A stretch of 64,000 bases of DNA from the NCBI RefSeq assembly GCF_000632225.1, contig NZ_JFYV01000012.1, positions 1-64,000 of the forward strand. Reading direction: 5' to 3'. Below are positions 7,688 to 50,879 of the stretch, in pieces (positions within the stretch are counted from its first letter, which is position 1; every line of letters begins with the position of its first letter). The notes beneath the pieces are model-generated. The model was not told the DNA's origin. It ran no database searches and was given only the letters and a program-made list of their open reading frames with translations. Position numbers and translations under genes: made by a program. This stretch comes from Sphingomonas sp. RIT328. GTDB taxonomy: Bacteria; Pseudomonadota; Alphaproteobacteria; Sphingomonadales; Sphingomonadaceae.

Positions 7688-7713
7688 AACGTATCGGCCT
7701 CCCGCGGCGTTCC
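7688..7713 (-). promoter_or_regulatory. Candidate EcfG promoter for the DUF4142 gene
   Basis: Read on the minus strand, GGAAC (7713-7709) and CGTT (7691-7688) are 17 bases apart, an exact match to the EcfG consensus. The predicted start of transcription is about 20 bases before ATG 7661, with the GGGAG site in between. Confidence 0.65.
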
Positions 7714-42368: not shown

Positions 42369-42892
42369 TGGCCGCGCGGTCATCGGCCGCGCCAACGGTT
42401 CCGCAGCGTCCCTGGTGAGCCGCGCGATACACGCTGCCTGGACGGACAGGGCGATTGCCGTGTCGAACACCTGCCCGTCAGGCGTCACGGACTTGGATCG
42501 GGGCGTGGAGAGGGTGTTCGAAACCCCCTTCGGCAGCGGGGCGGGAGGTGTCTCGTGGTAGCATCCATGCCGTTCGATCGGTTCGATGGGCGCGGCGGAT
42601 CGCCTATGTCGGATTCGAGGCTCGATCAGCGCCAGACGTCACGGCGCGATCGGCGATCGGACCGGGTTCGGAGCGGTGTCGATGCCTCGAAGTCGCCTGC
42701 GCGCCGGTCGATCCGGAGGATCGTCATGCCCCATGATGCAGGACGAATGGGACGCCATGGAGCCGTTCCGCCTCCATCGTCATACCGGTGCCTGCCATGT
42801 CTCGCTGACCCGGATGGATCGTGCTAGGCGTCTTATAAGCTTGGAATCAGACGGTGATCGCCTCGGGGGCTTTCGCACTGGCACGGGGGACC
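42369..42892. other. Intergenic region, nothing clear
   Basis: No gene is supported in these 524 bases; the short frames on both strands have compositions unlike those of neighbouring genes. A TATA-like stretch (CTTATAAGC, about 42832-42840) could belong to the kinase promoter. No EcfG-type site was found for the kinase. Confidence 0.4.
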
Positions 42893-45136
42893 ATGAGCGA
42901 AAACAGCAGCACCTATGATGGTGAACGACGCCGTCTGGCGACCCTGACCGATTATGATGTCCTGGCTGGAAAGACCGAACAGGGCCTCGATGACATAACC
43001 CGTATCGCGGCGCAGGTCGCCGGAACGCCGATTGCCTTCATATCGCTGGTCGATGACCAGCGGACGTGGTTCAAGGCGCCGATCGGTTTGGATCTGGCCG
43101 ACATCCCCCGTGCGTGGTCGATCAGCTCCCATGCCATCGAACAGGATGGCGTGTTCGAGATTCCCGATCTGAACAACGACGACCGGTTTGCCCGTGATCC
43201 GCTCGTCACCGGAGAGGCCGGTTTCCGGTCCTATGCCGGTGCGCCGCTGGTCGCATCCGATGGCGAGAAGCTCGGCGCCCTTGCCGTCGTCGATTATGAA
43301 CCACGCCAGCTCAACGCAGACCAGCGGCAGGCGTTGTTGGCGTTGTCGCGCCAGGTGATGGCCCTGTTGACCGCACGCAAGCAGCTGGCCGAGCGCCGGC
43401 AGGTCGATCAGCGACACGGCTTCATCCTCGACAGTGCGGTGGATTATGCGATCGTGTCGATGCGCCTCGACGGCACGGTGACGAGCTGGAACGAGGGCGC
43501 GGCGCGGATCATGGGCTGGACCGAGCAGGAGATGTGCGGTTTGCCGTGCCATCGCTTCTTCACCCCGGAAGACTGCGACGACGGCATCCCCGAAAAGGAA
43601 ATGGGCGCCGCCCTGGCGCAGGGGCGCGGCAAGGACGAGCGCTGGCATCTGCGCAAGGGCGGCGAACGCTTCTGGGCCAATGGCGAGATGATGCCGCTGA
43701 CCGATGAAGCGGATCGTCCGATCGGCTTCATCAAGATCCTGCGCGACCGCACCGAGCAGCGGCTGGAATATGAGCGGCTGAAGGCGATCGAGGAGCGGTT
43801 CAAGATCGCCCTCGAAGCGGCGGGCTTCGTCGGTTCGTGGGACTGGGACAGTCGGACCGATACGCTGCGCGCCGACAGCAAATTCTGCGCCTTCTATTCT
43901 GTCGATCCGGAGCTCGGCGAAAGCGGGGTGCCACTGGCGACCTTCGTCGCCGGCATCCATCCCGACGATCGCGAGCGGGTGGCCGAGGCGATCCGCCAGT
44001 GTATCGCGGAAACCGGGGAGTTTGCCGAAGAATATCGGGTCCTCCGCCACGATGGGGCGGTGCGCTGGGTCATGGCGCAGGGGCGCTGCGCGTATGACGG
44101 CAGCGGCAAGGCGACCCACTTTCCCGGCGTCGCGATCGATACCACCGACCGCAAGCTGGCCGAGCTGGCGCTGGCGGACAGCGAAACCCGGATGCGCCTG
44201 GCGCTGGAGGCGGGTGAGCTCGGCACATGGGAGTCGACGCTCGAGCTCGGCAACCTGCAATGGGATGCCCGCACGCGGGAGTTGCTCGGTCATACGCCCG
44301 ACGAGCCGCTCGATTTCCAGCACTCCTTCATCCGTCAGGTCCATCCCGATGACAGGGAGCGGGTCAACGCGGTCGTCCGCGAGGCGGTGACGACGGACGG
44401 TATGCTCGACGTCGGGTTCCGGACGATCGACGCGGCGGGGCGTCAACGCCATGTCCATGCCATCGGGGCGGTGGTCGTCGGCATGGCCAAACGCTTTCTG
44501 GGAACGGTGCGAGACGTCACCGAGCTGCGGGCCGCCGAGGACCATCGGGCGCTGCTCAACAACGAGCTTCAGCATCGCATCAAGAACACCTTGTCGATCG
44601 TCCAGGCGATCGTCAGCCAGTCGCTGCGCAACGCATCGACGCCGGCCGAGGCGCGCGACACGATCGGCAATCGCCTCCAGGTGCTGAGCGAAGCGCACGA
44701 TCTGCTCACGCGGACGAGCTGGTCCGCCGCGCCGATCGATACGATCGTCGACGGTGCGATCCGGCTCCAGGGCGGTCGCTCGCGGCGTATCCGCGTATCC
44801 GGCCCGCAGGTCCGGTTCCGTGCACGCGCCGCTCTTGCCCTGGCGATGGCGCTTCACGAACTCGGCACTAACGCGACCAAATATGGCGCCCTGTCGGTTC
44901 CGGAGGGTCATGTCGATTTGCGGTGGACCGTGATCCAGGAGCCCGAACCGGTGTTCGAGCTGGTCTGGAAGGAGCATGGCGGACCCGTCGTCACGGAGCC
45001 GACGCGGGTCGGCTTCGGGACACGATTGATGCAGAGCCTCGGCCGCGATCTCGGTGGCAAGGCGGTCATCGACTATGAACCGAGCGGTGTCCGATGGACG
45101 GTGCGCTCATCGCTGGCAGCGATCGTCGAGAGTTAG
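42893..45136 (+). CDS. GAF-PAS HWE-family sensor histidine kinase
   Basis: This 747-residue soluble kinase has an N-terminal GAF domain (about residues 15-160) and three PAS/PAC domains (about 175-290, 300-425 and 430-545). A C-terminal HWE/HisKA_2 kinase module follows, with phospho-acceptor His561 in LQHRIKN, the N-box HELGTNATKYGAL and the WKEHGG segment containing the family W-x-E. Such kinases feed the general stress response or light and redox signalling in alphaproteobacteria. ATG 42893 has a GGGGGA run upstream. A lone receiver gene follows 44 bases later. Confidence 0.9.
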   Translation: MSENSSTYDGERRRLATLTDYDVLAGKTEQGLDDITRIAAQVAGTPIAFISLVDDQRTWFKAPIGLDLADIPRAWSISSHAIEQDGVFEIPDLNNDDRFARDPLVTGEAGFRSYAGAPLVASDGEKLGALAVVDYEPRQLNADQRQALLALSRQVMALLTARKQLAERRQVDQRHGFILDSAVDYAIVSMRLDGTVTSWNEGAARIMGWTEQEMCGLPCHRFFTPEDCDDGIPEKEMGAALAQGRGKDERWHLRKGGERFWANGEMMPLTDEADRPIGFIKILRDRTEQRLEYERLKAIEERFKIALEAAGFVGSWDWDSRTDTLRADSKFCAFYSVDPELGESGVPLATFVAGIHPDDRERVAEAIRQCIAETGEFAEEYRVLRHDGAVRWVMAQGRCAYDGSGKATHFPGVAIDTTDRKLAELALADSETRMRLALEAGELGTWESTLELGNLQWDARTRELLGHTPDEPLDFQHSFIRQVHPDDRERVNAVVREAVTTDGMLDVGFRTIDAAGRQRHVHAIGAVVVGMAKRFLGTVRDVTELRAAEDHRALLNNELQHRIKNTLSIVQAIVSQSLRNASTPAEARDTIGNRLQVLSEAHDLLTRTSWSAAPIDTIVDGAIRLQGGRSRRIRVSGPQVRFRARAALALAMALHELGTNATKYGALSVPEGHVDLRWTVIQEPEPVFELVWKEHGGPVVTEPTRVGFGTRLMQSLGRDLGGKAVIDYEPSGVRWTVRSSLAAIVES

Positions 45137-45149
45137 GTCGCTCCGATCC

Positions 45150-45175
45150 GGAACGTATCGTACGCGCGGCATGTT
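45150..45175 (+). promoter_or_regulatory. Candidate EcfG promoter for the receiver gene
   Basis: GGAAC (45150-45154) and TGTT (45172-45175) are 17 bases apart. The predicted transcription start is at about 45181-45183, at or just inside the first ATG, so the mRNA would be nearly leaderless. Confidence 0.5.
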
Positions 45176-45180
45176 GGCCC

Positions 45181-45579
45181 ATGATGGATAGTCCCCACCC
45201 ATCGGCCGTCGTCCTCGTCGTCGATGATGAGACACTGATCCGCATGTATGCCGTCGATGTTCTCGAAGATGTCGGGTTCACGGTGATCGAAGCCGACGGC
45301 GGCGAAGACGCATTGTGTACGCTCGACCAGCATCCGGAGATCACCGTGCTGTTCACAGACATTCATATGCCTGGCCCATTCGACGGGTTGGTATTGGCGA
45401 GGAAGGTGCACGAGCGTCGGCCTGACATCCAGCTCATCATCGCGTCCGGCAGGGGCCGTCCGAACAGGTCAGAGCTGCCGGGTGACGGGGTATTTTTCAC
45501 CAAGCCTTACGACGGTATGGCCGTTGCCCGGTTGATCGAAGCGACGGAGCGGCTGTCCTGCAAGACGTCGACGCCATAG
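45181..45579 (+). CDS. Single-domain response regulator
   Basis: The 132-residue protein is a receiver domain alone. Acidic pocket residues are in VVDDE, the phospho-acceptor is Asp60 (VLFTDIHMPG), the Ser is in IIASGRG and the Lys is in FFTKPYDG (Lys108). It lacks the FATGUY motif of SdrG-type regulators. It probably receives phosphate from the HWE kinase 44 bases upstream. Start ATG 45181 or ATG 45184; no ribosome-binding site is present, which agrees with the nearly leaderless transcript predicted from the EcfG-like promoter. Confidence 0.87.
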   Translation: MMDSPHPSAVVLVVDDETLIRMYAVDVLEDVGFTVIEADGGEDALCTLDQHPEITVLFTDIHMPGPFDGLVLARKVHERRPDIQLIIASGRGRPNRSELPGDGVFFTKPYDGMAVARLIEATERLSCKTSTP

Positions 45580-45670
45580 TATGTTGCGTGCGCTACGTGG
45601 GCTGCTGATCCGGCATTGGGCGCACCGTCTCGCTCGAAGATCATCAGTCGCTTCCCGGAAGGGGCTCGCC

Positions 45671-45696
45671 GGAACCGGGGGATTGGCTCTTTGGTT
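45671..45696 (+). promoter_or_regulatory. Candidate EcfG promoter for the DUF2254 leader
   Basis: GGAAC (45671-45675) and GGTT (45693-45696) are 17 bases apart. A transcript from here would have a leader of about 360 bases before the DUF2254 start. Confidence 0.45.
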
Positions 45697-46015
45697 GTTC
45701 TAGGCCGGATCGCGGGCTCGGTGCGCCGGGGCGAGCGTCTCGCCCTTATTCTCGGGAGTCGACCCATGACGGATAGTATCGCGGTCGGCGTCTTCCTGCC
45801 GCTCTACCGTTGAGCCATTGTGGGAAAGGCCCGTCCGGCAGGCGCACCGATCGCGTCAGGAATTCCGACGACGCTCGGTCCGATAACGTGCGTGACAGGG
45901 GCGGGGCCCGTGCCGATGCGGTCAGGGCGGCAGATAAGGACGAGGCCACGATGCGGCAGGAGCGACGCGACGCGATCGTCGCCGACCAGGCCGCCGCTCT
46001 TCTTTGGGCCCCTCA

Positions 46016-46045
46016 GACCCGGCAGACCGAATAGGCCGGGTCTTT
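46016..46045 (+). terminator. Terminator-like hairpin just before the DUF2254 start
   Basis: GACCCGGC (46016-46023) and GCCGGGTC (46035-46042) form a perfect 8-bp stem with an 11-base loop, followed by TTT. It ends about 17 bases before ATG 46062. It could attenuate expression or end a small RNA made from the upstream EcfG-like promoter. Confidence 0.55.
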
Positions 46046-46061
46046 CCGAAAGGTACTGCCG

Positions 46062-47468
46062 ATGAAAGCCGGCCTGCTTCGTCTCGCCGACTATCTCGGC
46101 TCCAGCTATTGGTTCGTGCCGACGATCATGGCGATCGGCGCGGTGCTGCTCGCCATCGGCATGGTGACGCTCGATGCGACGCTCGGATCGTCGTGGATGG
46201 GCGGATATGCCTGGGTCTATGCCTCGCACCCCGACGGGGCGCGGCAGGTGCTGTCGTCGGTCGGCGGATCGATGATCACCGTGGCCGGCACCGTCTTTTC
46301 GGTGACGATCGCGGCGGTGGTCTATGCTTCGGGCCAATACGGCCCGCGACTGCTGACCAATTTCATGCGCGACCGCGGCAATCAGGTGACGCTCGGCACC
46401 TTCATCGCGACGTTCCTCTACTGCCTGCTGGTGCTGCGCACGATCCGCTCGGCCGAGGAATCCGGCGGCTATGGTTTCGTGCCCAATCTGGCGCTGCTCG
46501 TCGGTGTCCTGCTGGCACTCTGCTCGATCGCGGTGCTGATCTACTTCATCCATCACGTCCCGTCGAAGATCCACATCAACAGCGTCATCGAAGATGTCGG
46601 CGACCGGCTGCTGCGCGGCATCGACGATCGCTTCCCCCGTTTCATCGGCGAGGCGCCCGGCGATCATGACTCGACCGCAGAGAAGCTGCCTGCCACCTTC
46701 CGTGATACTGCCGATGCCGCGGTGGGCGCGGATCGCTTCGTCGTGACGGCGAAGGACACCGGCTATATCCAGTTTCTCGACGACGAGACGGTGATGCGGG
46801 TCGCTCGGGAGAACGGGCTGGTGCTGAGGCTGCAATATCAGCCCGGCGACTTCGTCCATATCGGCCGGGCGCTGGTGGAAGCGTGGCCGCCGGGACGATG
46901 CGACGACAAATGCGCCGACGCGCTCCGCGATGCCGTCGCGATCGGATCGCGCCGTTCCGCCTTGCAGGATCTGCGCTTTCTGGTCGACGAGCTGGTCGAG
47001 ATCGCCGCGCGCGCCCTCTCGCCCGGCGTCAACGATCCCTTCACCGCCGTGACCTGCCTCGACTGGCTGAGCGCGGCGCTTTCCGATCTCGCCGGCCGGT
47101 CGCTGCCGTCGCACCTGCGTGTCGACGACGACGGTGCGCTGCGAGTGATCGCCCATCCGGTCACCTTCGCCTCGCTGATGGATCGTTCGTTCGGCGCGCT
47201 CGCGCAATATTGCGCAGCCGACATGGTCGCGGCGCTGCGCTATCTCAATGCGCTCGGCGAGGTGTCGCTCGACTGCGACGAGCCCGATCGGCTCGCGACG
47301 ATCCGCGCTTATGCCGACAAGCTCGAAGAGCTGGCGAATGACGGATTGAAGGGTTTCAACCTGCGCCGGGTCCGGCACCGGGCCGACGAGCTGCGCGCGG
47401 CGCTGGCCGAGCCCGATTACAAGCGGCGTTTGCGTGACGGCACCGCCTGGCTCGCCGGTACAGCCTGA
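46062..47468 (+). CDS. DUF2254 membrane protein
   Basis: The 468-residue inner-membrane protein has about four transmembrane helices in the first 180 residues (FVPTIMAIGAVLLAIGMV, SMITVAGTVFSVTIAAVVYASGQYGPR, LGTFIATFLYCLLVL, LALLVGVLLALCSIAVLIYFIHH). A large cytoplasmic part follows. The motif FSVTIAAVVYASGQYGPRLL is characteristic of DUF2254. Function is unknown; such proteins are often near stress genes. AAAGG lies nine bases before the start. Confidence 0.87.
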   Translation: MKAGLLRLADYLGSSYWFVPTIMAIGAVLLAIGMVTLDATLGSSWMGGYAWVYASHPDGARQVLSSVGGSMITVAGTVFSVTIAAVVYASGQYGPRLLTNFMRDRGNQVTLGTFIATFLYCLLVLRTIRSAEESGGYGFVPNLALLVGVLLALCSIAVLIYFIHHVPSKIHINSVIEDVGDRLLRGIDDRFPRFIGEAPGDHDSTAEKLPATFRDTADAAVGADRFVVTAKDTGYIQFLDDETVMRVARENGLVLRLQYQPGDFVHIGRALVEAWPPGRCDDKCADALRDAVAIGSRRSALQDLRFLVDELVEIAARALSPGVNDPFTAVTCLDWLSAALSDLAGRSLPSHLRVDDDGALRVIAHPVTFASLMDRSFGALAQYCAADMVAALRYLNALGEVSLDCDEPDRLATIRAYADKLEELANDGLKGFNLRRVRHRADELRAALAEPDYKRRLRDGTAWLAGTA

Positions 47469-47541
47469 CCAGCGATCGGAGGCGCCATCGGCCGGGGTTT
47501 GTCCGTCCCTTTTTCGGGCCGGACGCGATGAGGTAAATAAA

Positions 47542-47570
47542 GAGGGCGTCGCCGATGATCGGCCGCCCTC
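47542..47570. terminator. Bidirectional terminator between the DUF2254 and DUF2171 genes
   Basis: GAGGGCG (47542-47548) pairs with CGCCCTC (47564-47570), and an inner stem GCCGA/TCGGC extends it. On the minus strand the hairpin is followed by TTTATTTACC, a good U-rich tail for the DUF2171 gene. Confidence 0.65.
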
Positions 47571-47627
47571 GTCTTCGCGGTCAGGGTAGCGCCACCAAGC
47601 CCTTGGGGCTCGTGGCGCCCCTGGACG

Positions 47628-47852
47628 TCAGGCCTTCGCTGCCTGCGCCTCTGCCTTGGTGACCTTCAGGTAGATGCGATTGTCCTCGATCCGGTCGACC
47701 ATGTCGAACGGCAGCGTGTGATGCTGATGGTCGGACGAATCGGTCTTGGTCAGCTTGATCGTCTCGCCCTCGACCTTGTCGACGGTGCCGACGTGCTCGC
47801 CGTCCGAACCGGCGATCTCCATATGCTCCTTGATCCGCAGCTTCTCGAACAT
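47628..47852 (-). CDS. DUF2171 family protein
   Basis: This 74-residue beta-rich protein of the PRC-barrel-like DUF2171 family begins MFEKLRIKEHMEIAGSDGEHVGTVDKVEG and has the DHQHHTLPFDMVDRIEDNRIYL core. It is cytoplasmic and of unknown function. AGGAGG lies five bases before ATG 47852, a strong ribosome-binding site. An EcfG-like promoter with one mismatch lies just upstream. Confidence 0.85.
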   Translation of the reverse strand: MFEKLRIKEHMEIAGSDGEHVGTVDKVEGETIKLTKTDSSDHQHHTLPFDMVDRIEDNRIYLKVTKAEAQAAKA

Positions 47853-47877
47853 GGTACCTCCTTGTTGACGCCGTACG

Positions 47878-47903
47878 AACGTCGCGGACGGTGTCTGGGT
47901 TCA
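47878..47903 (-). promoter_or_regulatory. Weak EcfG-like promoter for DUF2171
   Basis: Read on the minus strand, TGAAC (47903-47899) and CGTT (47881-47878) are 17 bases apart, one mismatch from consensus. The distance to ATG 47852 leaves room for the AGGAGG site. Confidence 0.4.
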
Positions 47904-48021
47904 TGCTTTTCGACAAACGGATGCATCAAAGCATTGGACGGGCAGGGCGCTGCCCGTCGATATCGTCGGGTGGCGGGGGCGATCGGTCCGCCTCACGTTG
48001 ATGACGCCGTAGCGGACCAGA

Positions 48022-49843
48022 ATGGGAGGGGATGTGTTCGACGTCATCGCATCAGCGCTCCAAGCGCATCAGCCGGTGATCGGTCTGCTATTCGTCATTG
48101 CGCTGTTCGCCGCTTTCGCGAGCGAACGCTTTCCGCCGGTCACGATCGCAATTGTCGGAGCCGGCGCGATGATTGTTGGCGGTTGGCTGACCCCCGCCCT
48201 GGTCACGGCCGCCTTCGCCAATCCGGCGCCGATCACGATCGCCGCCTTCTTCGTCCTGTCGGGTGCATTGGTCCGCACCGGCACGATCGAGGCGCTTGCC
48301 AGTGTCGTCGTCCGCCGCGCGTCAGCAGCACCGCGGCGGACCGTCGCCGAAATGCTCGCCGGGGCCGCGACCGCCCCGGCCTTCATCAACAACACGCCGG
48401 TCGTCATCGTCCTCATCCCGCTGGTGCGCCGACTGGCGAAGACCGTCGGCATTCCGGCGACCCGGCTGCTGATTCCTCTGTCCTACCTCTCGATCCTCGG
48501 CGGGACGCTGACGCTGATCGGCACCTCGACCAACCTGCTGGTGGACGGCGTCGCGCACGCGAACGGACAGGCGCCATTCGGCATCTTCGAGATCACCGGC
48601 GTCGGCCTCGTCGCTATGGCGGCCGGGATCGCCACCATGCTGGTGCTCGGACCGAAGCGGCTGCCCTCGCGGCCGGACAATGACATCGCGGACCGCCATC
48701 AGCTGCGCTACCTGACCGAGCTGACGCTGTCGGAGGAGGAAGCGGCGAAGCGCCCGACCCTTGCGGACCTGTCCTTCCTCAAGCGTGATGCCGTCCGCCT
48801 TGTCGCGATCAGGCGCGGCAGCGAATTGCTGCGCGAGCCGCCCCCCCGACCTGCGGATCACCCGCGATGATCGCCTGGTGGTGGCCAGTTCGGCCGACGA
48901 ACTGGACGGGCTCGCCCGCAGCCGGGGCGTGATCGTCGGCCTCCAGAATGTCGGTCGTCCGATACGCCTCGCCGAGGATGAGCGGGCCGACGACGTGCGC
49001 CTGATCGGCCTCACGATCGCGCCGTCGCATCCCGCACTGGGGCGTGAGCTACGCGACATCCCCTTCCTGTCCAACCTGCCTGCCCGCGTGCTCGGGATCG
49101 GGCGCGCCCGGCATCTGCCCGGACCCGACCTCGGCAGCGTGCGCCTGCGCGCGGCCGACAGTCTGCTCGTCGCCGCCGATGCCGGCGCTCTTGCGGCATT
49201 GCACGAGAACACGAACCTCATCGCGGAGGATACCAGCCACGTCCGCCGCTTCCGCCGGCGTCGTGCCCCGATCGCGATCGGAACGCTCGCCGGCGTGATC
49301 GCGCTCGCGGCGCTCGGTGCGATGCCGGTCGTTCTCCTCGCCCTGATCGGCGTGGGCATCGTGCTTGTCACCGGCTGCATCGATCCCGAAGAGGCGTGGC
49401 GATCGATCGACGGCAGCGTCCTCGTCCTCATCTTTGCGATGCTCGGCATCGGCAGCGGGCTGGAGGCGATCGGCACGGTGAAGCTCGTCGTCGATACGAT
49501 CGCACCCTGGATCGGTGGACTGTCCCCGCTGCTCGTGATCGTGGTCCTGTATTTCCTGACATCGCTGTTGACCGAGACGGTCACGAACAACGCCGTCGCC
49601 GTCATCATGACGCCGGTCGCGATCGGCCTCGCCCAGGCGAGCGGCAATGATCCCCGTGCGCTGATCGTCACGGTCATGTTCGCGGCATCGGCCAGTTTCG
49701 CGACGCCGATCGGCTATCAGACCAACACCATGGTCTATGCAGCGGCCGACTATCGTTTCGCCGATTTCGTCAAGATCGGCCTGCCGATGAACATCGTCGT
49801 CGGCGCGGCGACCTGTTTCGCGATCGCATGGCTTGTTCCGTGA
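48022..49843 (+). pseudogene. SLC13-type permease with TrkA-C region, frameshifted
   Basis: Two adjacent frames together encode one SLC13/CitT-like permease of about 600 residues. The first (48022-48870) gives N-terminal helices and the INNTPVVIVLIPLV motif. The second, open to 49843, gives the TrkA-C-like cytoplasmic part and the C-terminal helices with TETVTNNAVAVIMTP. The frame changes by one base at a run of seven C (48841-48847); six would restore it. It may be a disrupted gene, a phase-variable switch or a sequencing error. The first frame would stop at 48870 after 282 residues. Confidence 0.8.
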
Positions 49844-49862
49844 GGCCAGCCGTATCGCTTGC

Positions 49863-49887
49863 GGAACAACGATTTTGACACCCCGTT
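49863..49887 (+). promoter_or_regulatory. Candidate EcfG promoter for the MscS-type gene
   Basis: GGAAC (49863-49867) and CGTT (49884-49887) are 16 bases apart, an exact consensus match. The predicted transcription start is about 49894, two bases before the ATG, so the mRNA would be nearly leaderless. Confidence 0.65.
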
Positions 49888-49895
49888 CTGCAACG

Positions 49896-50879
49896 ATGCA
49901 GTCCGTCACACCGCCGCCGGCGAGAAACCCGATCGACCTGATTACGGCGAAGCTGCACGTCGCATCGAACGACTTCTTCCTGCAATTGCCCAATATCGTC
50001 GGCGGCATCGTCTTCGTCATCATCGCCTGGTTCGCCGGCAAGCTGATCGCAAACGGCGTTCGGCGGGCTTTCCACCACAAGGGGCTGGTCGACCTCGGCG
50101 GGGTCCTCGCCTCGCTGACCTTTGGTCTGATCGTGGCCGCGGCCGTGCTGATCGCCTGTGTTATCGTGTTCCCGAGCGTGAAGCCTGCGACGATCATCTC
50201 CAGCCTCGGTATCGGCTCGGTCGCGATCGGCTTTGCGTTCAAGGACATCCTCCAGAACCTGCTGGCCGGCATCCTGCTGCTCATCAACCGCCCCTATCGG
50301 CGCGGCGACCAGATCGTGGTCAAGGATTTCGAAGGTACCGTCGAGCATATCCAGAGCCGTGCGACCCTTATCAAGACCTATGACGGTCGCCGGGTCATCA
50401 TCCCCAATTCGGACGTCTACACCTCGCCCGTGATGGTCAACACGGCGTTTCCGGTGCGCCGTGACCAGTTCGACATCGGCATCGGCTATGGCGACAAGCC
50501 CGATCGCGCGATGACGGTCTTCGCCGAAGCCATCGCCAAGGTCGACGGCGTCGAGGCGGACCCGGCGCCGGAGGTACTGCCATGGGGACTGGACGCCAGC
50601 TCGGTGACGCTGCGGGCGCGCTGGTGGTCGGATTCCAAGCGGACCAACCTCGTCCACCTGCGCGCGCGCGTCATCCTGGCGATCTGGCAGGCCGCGGCGG
50701 ACAATGGCATCGACCTGCCGTTCCCGACGCAGCAGATCCTCTTCCACGACCAGACCGAAGAGACAGACGGCGACCGGACGCGGCAGCGGGAAGGCTGGCC
50801 CGCCGGCGCCAATCCGCCCCGCGCACGGCCTGTCGGACGTGCGGACACCGCGGACCGGACGGCGGATGAACATGGCTGA
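49896..50879 (+). CDS. Small-conductance mechanosensitive channel, MscS family
   Basis: This 327-residue protein has three transmembrane helices, with the pore helix ATIISSLGIGSVAIGFAFKDILQNLLAGILLL (about residues 92-123). The MscS beta domain follows (RRGDQIVVKDFEGTVEHIQ), then IIPNSDVYTSPVMVNTAF and a cytoplasmic alpha/beta domain ending in a charged tail. It should release osmolytes on hypo-osmotic shock. ATG 49896 has no ribosome-binding site, in line with the EcfG-like promoter just upstream. Confidence 0.88.
   Translation: MQSVTPPPARNPIDLITAKLHVASNDFFLQLPNIVGGIVFVIIAWFAGKLIANGVRRAFHHKGLVDLGGVLASLTFGLIVAAAVLIACVIVFPSVKPATIISSLGIGSVAIGFAFKDILQNLLAGILLLINRPYRRGDQIVVKDFEGTVEHIQSRATLIKTYDGRRVIIPNSDVYTSPVMVNTAFPVRRDQFDIGIGYGDKPDRAMTVFAEAIAKVDGVEADPAPEVLPWGLDASSVTLRARWWSDSKRTNLVHLRARVILAIWQAAADNGIDLPFPTQQILFHDQTEETDGDRTRQREGWPAGANPPRARPVGRADTADRTADEHG

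Follow-up and report, generated by a model that had tools for sequence, protein, structure and literature searches.

Two genes of Sphingomonas sp. RIT328 on a 64,000-nucleotide stretch of contig NZ_JFYV01000012.1 (the window) carry EcfG-type promoters directly in front of their start codons: a gene for an mscS-family mechanosensitive channel and a gene for a single-domain response-regulator receiver. Judged from the sequence and its relatives, it is likely that both belong to the regulon of the stress sigma factor EcfG, that transcription starts at the AUG or within 1–2 bases of it, and that the stress transcript is leaderless. The architecture of promoter, gap and start codon is well supported by the comparisons, and from it we infer the use of the promoter by EcfG, the exact 5' end and leaderless translation.

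Promoter and start of mscS

The mscS promoter (49863–49887, plus strand) consists of a -35 box GGAAC at 49863–49867, a 16-nt spacer and a -10 box CGTT at 49884–49887, and it exactly matches the EcfG-type pattern used here, GGAAC and CGTT separated by 16–17 nt. A stretch of 8 nt (49888–49895, plus strand) leads from the -10 box to ATG 49896, the start of a channel of 327 aa (49896–50879, plus strand; Pfam MS_channel_2nd, 7.7e-19). The receiver promoter reads GGAAC-N17-TGTT. The 20 nt 5' of each start were paired with the anti-Shine-Dalgarno sequence ACCUCCUU, which we take to be the 16S tail. Pairing energies were +0.7 kcal/mol for mscS and -1.7 kcal/mol for the receiver gene, values that indicate no Shine-Dalgarno sequence at either, as against -12.2 kcal/mol for a DUF2171 gene that lies between the two and serves as a contrast case. 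Random 20-mers from the window averaged -2.9 kcal/mol, with 22% at -5 or lower. An earlier sequence-only reading had proposed two EcfG-like promoters close to the start codons and the lack of a ribosome-binding site at both genes, and both proposals are borne out.

The conservation of this arrangement was followed in 20 mscS sequences: that of the window, those of G008 and L033 (from G011), L141–L156 and L212. In a survey of 61 genomes of the genus, mscS matches above 49% identity were found only in the own genome, G008 (90%), G003 (68%) and G011 (59%). A scan of named genomes gave 80 mscS loci, of which L141–L156 and L212 (17) were examined, the remainder being at most 57% identical. The closest named relatives were mostly Sphingomonas, including Sphingomonas abaci at 94%. 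The mscS copy of G003 (L032) appears identical to L155. The L141 record is titled Arthrobacter sp. TPD3018, with an MscS 94% identical and an SLC13 gene 92–94% identical to those of the window, and is probably a mislabelled sphingomonad.

The promoter and the 8-nt gap fit in 15 of the 20 sequences, namely all 14 with at least 75% identity (window included) and L153 (68%); records named Croceibacterium and Sphingobium are among them. GGAAC, the gap of 8 nt and an ATG start codon occurred in all 15, the -10 box was CGTT in 14 and GGTT in one, and the spacer was 16 nt in nine and 17 nt in six. None of the eight gap positions was invariant, so that the length of the gap is constant and its letters vary. 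Anti-Shine-Dalgarno pairing reached -5.0 kcal/mol in three of the 15, and the set as a whole lacks a Shine-Dalgarno sequence.

The mscS reading frame is open 5' of ATG 49896, with TTG codons at 49875 and 49833. Among 13 N-termini compared, conservation began at Met 49896, as MQ[SP] followed by [VL][TA]PPP (MQVQNVTPPP in L152), and the residues 5' of it were unconserved except within the close group of L141, L143 and the window. The frame is closed by a stop 6 nt before the ATG in L145 and 3 nt before it in L147, and no alternative in-frame start was found back to the stop in L146, L148 and L149.

By similarity, an SLC13 gene lies 5' of mscS in L141, L142 (whose contig ends at the SLC13 gene region), L143, L147, L148 and, weakly, L146. 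In L144, L145 and L149–L153 a search of up to 2.5 kb 5' of mscS revealed no such gene. Because the neighbour varies while the promoter stays, the mscS promoter, gap and start travel together regardless of what precedes them. In the parts of the published studies covered here, dependence on EcfG is reported for mscS genes of S. melonis Fr1 (PMC6599016) and S. granuli (PMC7083833), which need not be orthologues of the one in the window.

The receiver gene and its orthologue

The promoter of the receiver gene (45150–45175, plus strand) has GGAAC at 45150–45154, a spacer of 17 nt and TGTT at 45172–45175. Its -10 box differs by one letter from CGTT and was accepted as a tolerated variant of the EcfG type. 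In the account of the Sphingopyxis granuli EcfG regulon, as far as it was covered, TGTT counts as one of the common -10 boxes, was tested in vitro and was weaker than CGTT when exchanged, and GCAAC is a frequent -35 variant that was used in in vitro transcription (PMC7083833). ATG 45181 follows TGTT after 5 nt and ATG 45184 after 8 nt; the 8-nt stretch (45176–45183, plus strand) thus contains the first ATG, and it holds no Shine-Dalgarno sequence. From ATG 45184 the frame encodes a receiver of 131 aa (45184–45579, plus strand; Pfam Response_reg, 8.4e-14).

A single close orthologue was found in 295 genomes of the genus (L281, 89% identical; next best 58%), and it retains GGAAC-N17-TGTT, the 8 nt and the ATG. 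There, ATA replaces ATG 45181 and an in-frame TAG lies 9 nt before the start, which places the start of the receiver at 45184. The sequence-only reading had allowed either ATG, and only the second of them is kept. Directly 5' of the receiver gene lies a GAF/PAS HWE histidine kinase gene (42854–45136, plus strand, start putative; Pfam HWE_HK, 8.1e-23, with PAS and GAF). The L281 receiver is likewise preceded by a kinase, 90% identical to that of the window over residues 278–759.

When 30 receivers were compared (own included), 12 had GGAAC-N16/17-NGTT with a start 8–10 nt on. The -10 box of these was TGTT in nine and AGTT or GGTT in three, and one start codon was GTG (distant L061). Further receivers of the fitting kind are L065 and, by eye, L068. 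Part of the compared receivers are probably paralogues.

Promoter-to-start distances in the genus and family

Distances from GGAAC-N16/17-CGTT to a following ATG were tallied twice in the genus. The first tally used listed rows covering seven of 21 genomes; most nested rows were left out, ATGs were counted within the longer string, and one G017 site was typed in a shorter form. The larger tally used 149 typed rows covering 30 of 61 genomes, with one nested G016 row omitted. The two tallies share genomes and are not independent.

Two peaks were seen in the first tally, one at 8–9 nt and a broad one at about 20–30 nt (the latter being the limit of the pattern). There were 18 ATGs at gaps 8–9, none at gap 7 and one at gap 10, versus 82 at gaps 21–30. 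A Shine-Dalgarno-like core between the -10 box and the ATG was present in 66 of the 82 at gaps 21–30 versus one of the 22 at gaps 6–11, short gaps leaving little room for one. As leadered matches with a Shine-Dalgarno sequence are the commoner kind, the leaderless set is a minority, and leaderless translation is not the norm in this stress response. The mscS and receiver genes, whose AUG comes 8 nt behind the -10 box, differ in this from the larger class of EcfG promoters in the genus, in which the ATG follows 21–30 nt on.

The larger tally gave 33 rows at gap 8, 22 at gap 9 and 18 at gap 10, versus 12 and 11 rows at gaps 5 and 11, which have the same phase as gap 8 (P about 8e-5). In the family, across 59 genera, CGTT-N8-ATG was found 77 times (reversed pattern, 13) and CGTT-N5-ATG 20 times (reversed, 23). 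In a class-wide sample of 115 genomes, 47 listed rows from five genomes held nine at gap 8 and seven at gap 4; this sample is too mixed, and no claim is made beyond the family.

Gene-like frames followed 27 of 40 gap-8/9 sites in the genus versus four of 20 off-peak sites (P 6e-4). The 40 comprised the 32 other gap-8 rows and eight of the 22 gap-9 rows, and the 20 were hand-picked from the remaining rows. Shine-Dalgarno scoring covered 69 of 70 sites. Among the 42 gene-like gap-8/9 sites of genus and family together, a GGAG, GAGG or AGGA core 5' of the ATG occurred in none, and 37 had no in-frame start preceded by a Shine-Dalgarno sequence within the next 20 codons.

Many of these frames are stress-type genes. 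ExoD stands behind such a promoter in three genomes, twice at gap 8 and once at gap 9. Ribose-5-phosphate isomerase A was found in two, together with a second MscS-type protein, trehalose phosphatase, MsrB (SelR) and a glutathione S-transferase. DNA photolyase (two genera), protein isoaspartate methyltransferase and an Fpg-type glycosylase were found in the family. Genes for OmpA/glycine-zipper proteins (two genomes by sequence), hemerythrin and an own-genome YqcI were also found at such sites, but with a possible later start. The Fpg-type match starts at residue 1 (MPELPE). Fpg requires its N-terminal proline, and therefore translation of this gene must truly begin at the gap-8 ATG. Several proteins of the class had no Pfam match. 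Two kinds of small protein recur behind gap-8/9 EcfG promoters (L255, L260; L232, L339): one of 121 aa in two genomes, beginning MTQKSKPKGKSKRGYKPDHH, and a 106-aa pair with an MAA..A.KGL start; L255, L232 and L339 had no Pfam match.

For 50 strongly EcfG-dependent genes of S. melonis Fr1, a published table gives the number of nucleotides between the putative motif and the predicted start (Table 1 of PMC6599016). By our reading, three of the 50 lie at 8–10 nt (#0072, #1765, #2534), 14 at 24–35 nt, none at 11–23 nt and two at 2 nt. The parts of that paper covered hold no remark on leaderless mRNA.

Proposed mechanism, alternatives and neighbouring genes

The own genome holds NepR and, within the same 3 kb, also PhyR and a HisKA_2/HWE kinase (the sigma factor gene was outside the search). 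These three form the centre of the general stress response in Alphaproteobacteria, and the release of EcfG from NepR by PhyR is established for the class. Under stress, PhyR would free EcfG from NepR, and polymerase carrying EcfG would start at the A of the AUG, at 49896 for mscS and 45184 for the receiver gene, 9 nt past the -10 box. The -10 box of ECF promoters ends about 9 nt before +1. The start position is proposed because the 8-nt gap is constant, and leaderless translation follows from the start position: with transcription beginning at the AUG the stress transcript would be leaderless, and the ribosome would bind it by its 5'-terminal AUG. Selection would hold the gap at this length, since extra bases would become a short leader of no use and a shorter gap would put the AUG outside the transcript. 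Three reasons for a leaderless message would fit: it may shield the gene from effects of leader structure, keep output fixed at a low level, or permit translation when canonical initiation is limited, as the sequence-only reading suggested for stress proteins.

Several observations weigh against this reading. Some concern conservation. The mscS promoter of L155 is GCAAC-N16-CGTT with a gap of 9 nt, no such promoter was found at mscS of L154, L156, L033 and L212 (four of the 20 sequences), and a scan of more distant mscS homologues (<50% identity) gave no promoter at the start. The arrangement is missing in 18 of the 30 receivers, only one close orthologue of the receiver gene is available, and its promoter spacer is still 14/17 identical, which makes receiver conservation weaker evidence than that of mscS. 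The nearly leaderless mRNAs proposed by the sequence-only reading accordingly have strong comparative support that is firm for mscS and less firm for the receiver gene. Others concern the counts. The core motif GGAAC-N16/17-CGTT occurs 29 times in the genome versus 47 for the reversed pattern and is not enriched, so a motif match by itself proves little and bare counts are not used as proof. Only 13 of 30 family gap-8 loci open a gene-like frame; with 17 lacking one, a good part of the single matches is chance. With TGTT as the -10 box there is no sharp peak at gap 8 (13 at 8, 17 at 9, 14 at 10 and 13 at 4 in 101 typed rows), and at five of the 42 gene-like sites a Shine-Dalgarno-like core precedes an in-frame start further on (OmpA, hemerythrin and the own-genome YqcI among them). 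Part of the gap-8 excess could also arise if leadered promoters favour A at +1, and read-through from upstream genes would give longer mRNAs as well.

Among the alternatives, a transcription start a few bases 5' of the AUG, giving a leader of 1–5 nt and an mRNA that is nearly rather than truly leaderless, has perhaps one chance in a handful of being correct. Matches at gaps 9 and 10 are moderately common in the genus tally as well, and among the fitting receiver homologues gap 9 occurs most often; against this, the gap is identical in all 15 fitting mscS sequences. The functional meaning would hardly be altered, since so short a leader would also lack a Shine-Dalgarno sequence.

It is rather improbable that the EcfG promoters are real and the translated mRNA nonetheless comes from upstream read-through or a housekeeping promoter, coupled to the upstream gene. 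Both genes do follow closely behind a gene on the same strand, the receiver gene behind the kinase (47-nt gap) and mscS behind SLC13 (52-nt gap). However, the promoter and 8-nt gap persist in the seven relatives listed above in which no SLC13 gene was found 5' of mscS, and the conservation of an exact gap would be hard to explain if a leaderless transcript had no importance.

Chance matches beside start codons are very improbable. The core motif has two matches in the window versus 1.16 expected, and its lack of enrichment in the genome, the mismatch in the receiver box and the family loci without gene-like frames all leave room for coincidence. GGAAC-N16/17-NGTT-N8-ATG, however, occurs five times in the 4.34-Mb genome, with none for the reversed control and 1.6 expected from base composition (P about 0.03). 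The mscS and receiver sites are among the five, and the other three precede a YqcI/YcgG-family gene, a 57-codon frame and a 6-codon frame. Conservation is the decisive evidence against chance: the arrangement is kept in 14 of 14 mscS sequences with at least 75% identity and in the receiver orthologue, and the family counts at gap 8 stand well above both the gap-5 and the reversed counts. Equally improbable is translation from an upstream TTG in the open mscS frame or from an internal start, with the promoter inside the real leader or far from it, given the unconserved upstream residues, the N-terminus conserved from Met 49896 and the stops just 5' of it in relatives. For mscS, chance, alternative starts and a coding-phase artefact were rejected, the first by conservation and the second by the N-terminus and stops.

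Leaderless mRNAs in Alphaproteobacteria and EcfG promoters and regulons are both already known. In the published parts covered, 171 leaderless mRNAs are reported for Sinorhizobium meliloti (PMC3616915) and 119 for Zymomonas mobilis (PMC7566282), and 320 messages starting within 0–10 nt for Bradyrhizobium (PMC4842269). The window genes share with these the AUG start and membership in a genome-wide minority; they differ in being defined by the promoter of one stress sigma factor, the parts covered showing no tie to the EcfG regulon. With described EcfG (RpoE2, SigT) promoters they share GGAAC-N16/17-CGTT, the flexibility to TGTT and GCAAC, and MscS members, as far as those accounts were covered. 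The E. coli MazF model, as cited in the covered part of PMC3616915, shares the idea that stress favours leaderless messages; there an RNase makes them, whereas here the promoter itself would do so. The open-access literature searched, which was covered largely at listing level, yielded no description of a conserved leaderless branch of the EcfG regulon.

Tentatively, and with less confidence than for the two genes themselves, the EcfG regulon of Sphingomonadaceae may consist of a leadered majority and a leaderless minority that is set by the 8-nt gap; a single sigma factor would in this way send part of its output to 5'-AUG initiation, where it would stay translated when canonical initiation falls under stress. 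On that doubtful extension the minority would include MscS, ExoD, photolyase, trehalose phosphatase, MsrB and a receiver. Should mapping confirm the 5' ends, a single stress sigma factor would set both transcription and, through the promoter-to-AUG spacing, the mode of translation of a subset of genes. Whether leaderless messages serve stress survival would become testable in one regulon holding both kinds of message, and an EcfG -10 box plus 8 nt would give a simple rule for checking start codons in the family.

The DUF2171 gene (5.7e-28) has a leadered EcfG-like promoter, TGAAC-N17-CGTT (47878–47903, minus strand), with a 25-nt gap to the ATG and an AAGGAGG Shine-Dalgarno sequence. An exact GGAAC-N17-CGTT at 7713–7688 (minus strand), 26 nt before ATG 7661 (minus strand) and accompanied by a Shine-Dalgarno-like GGGAG, is a candidate for an ordinary leadered EcfG promoter. 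The SLC13/CitMHS transporter gene 5' of mscS (48022–49843) is in two frames, split near a run of C at about 48840; the copies in L141, L143 and L148 are in a single frame, and the split may be genuine or may stem from a sequencing error. Genomes G001, G003, G005, G009, G016 and G017 have a common EcfG promoter with a similar leader that ends approximately in TCGGA-AGCGACCTTATG and is without a classic Shine-Dalgarno sequence.

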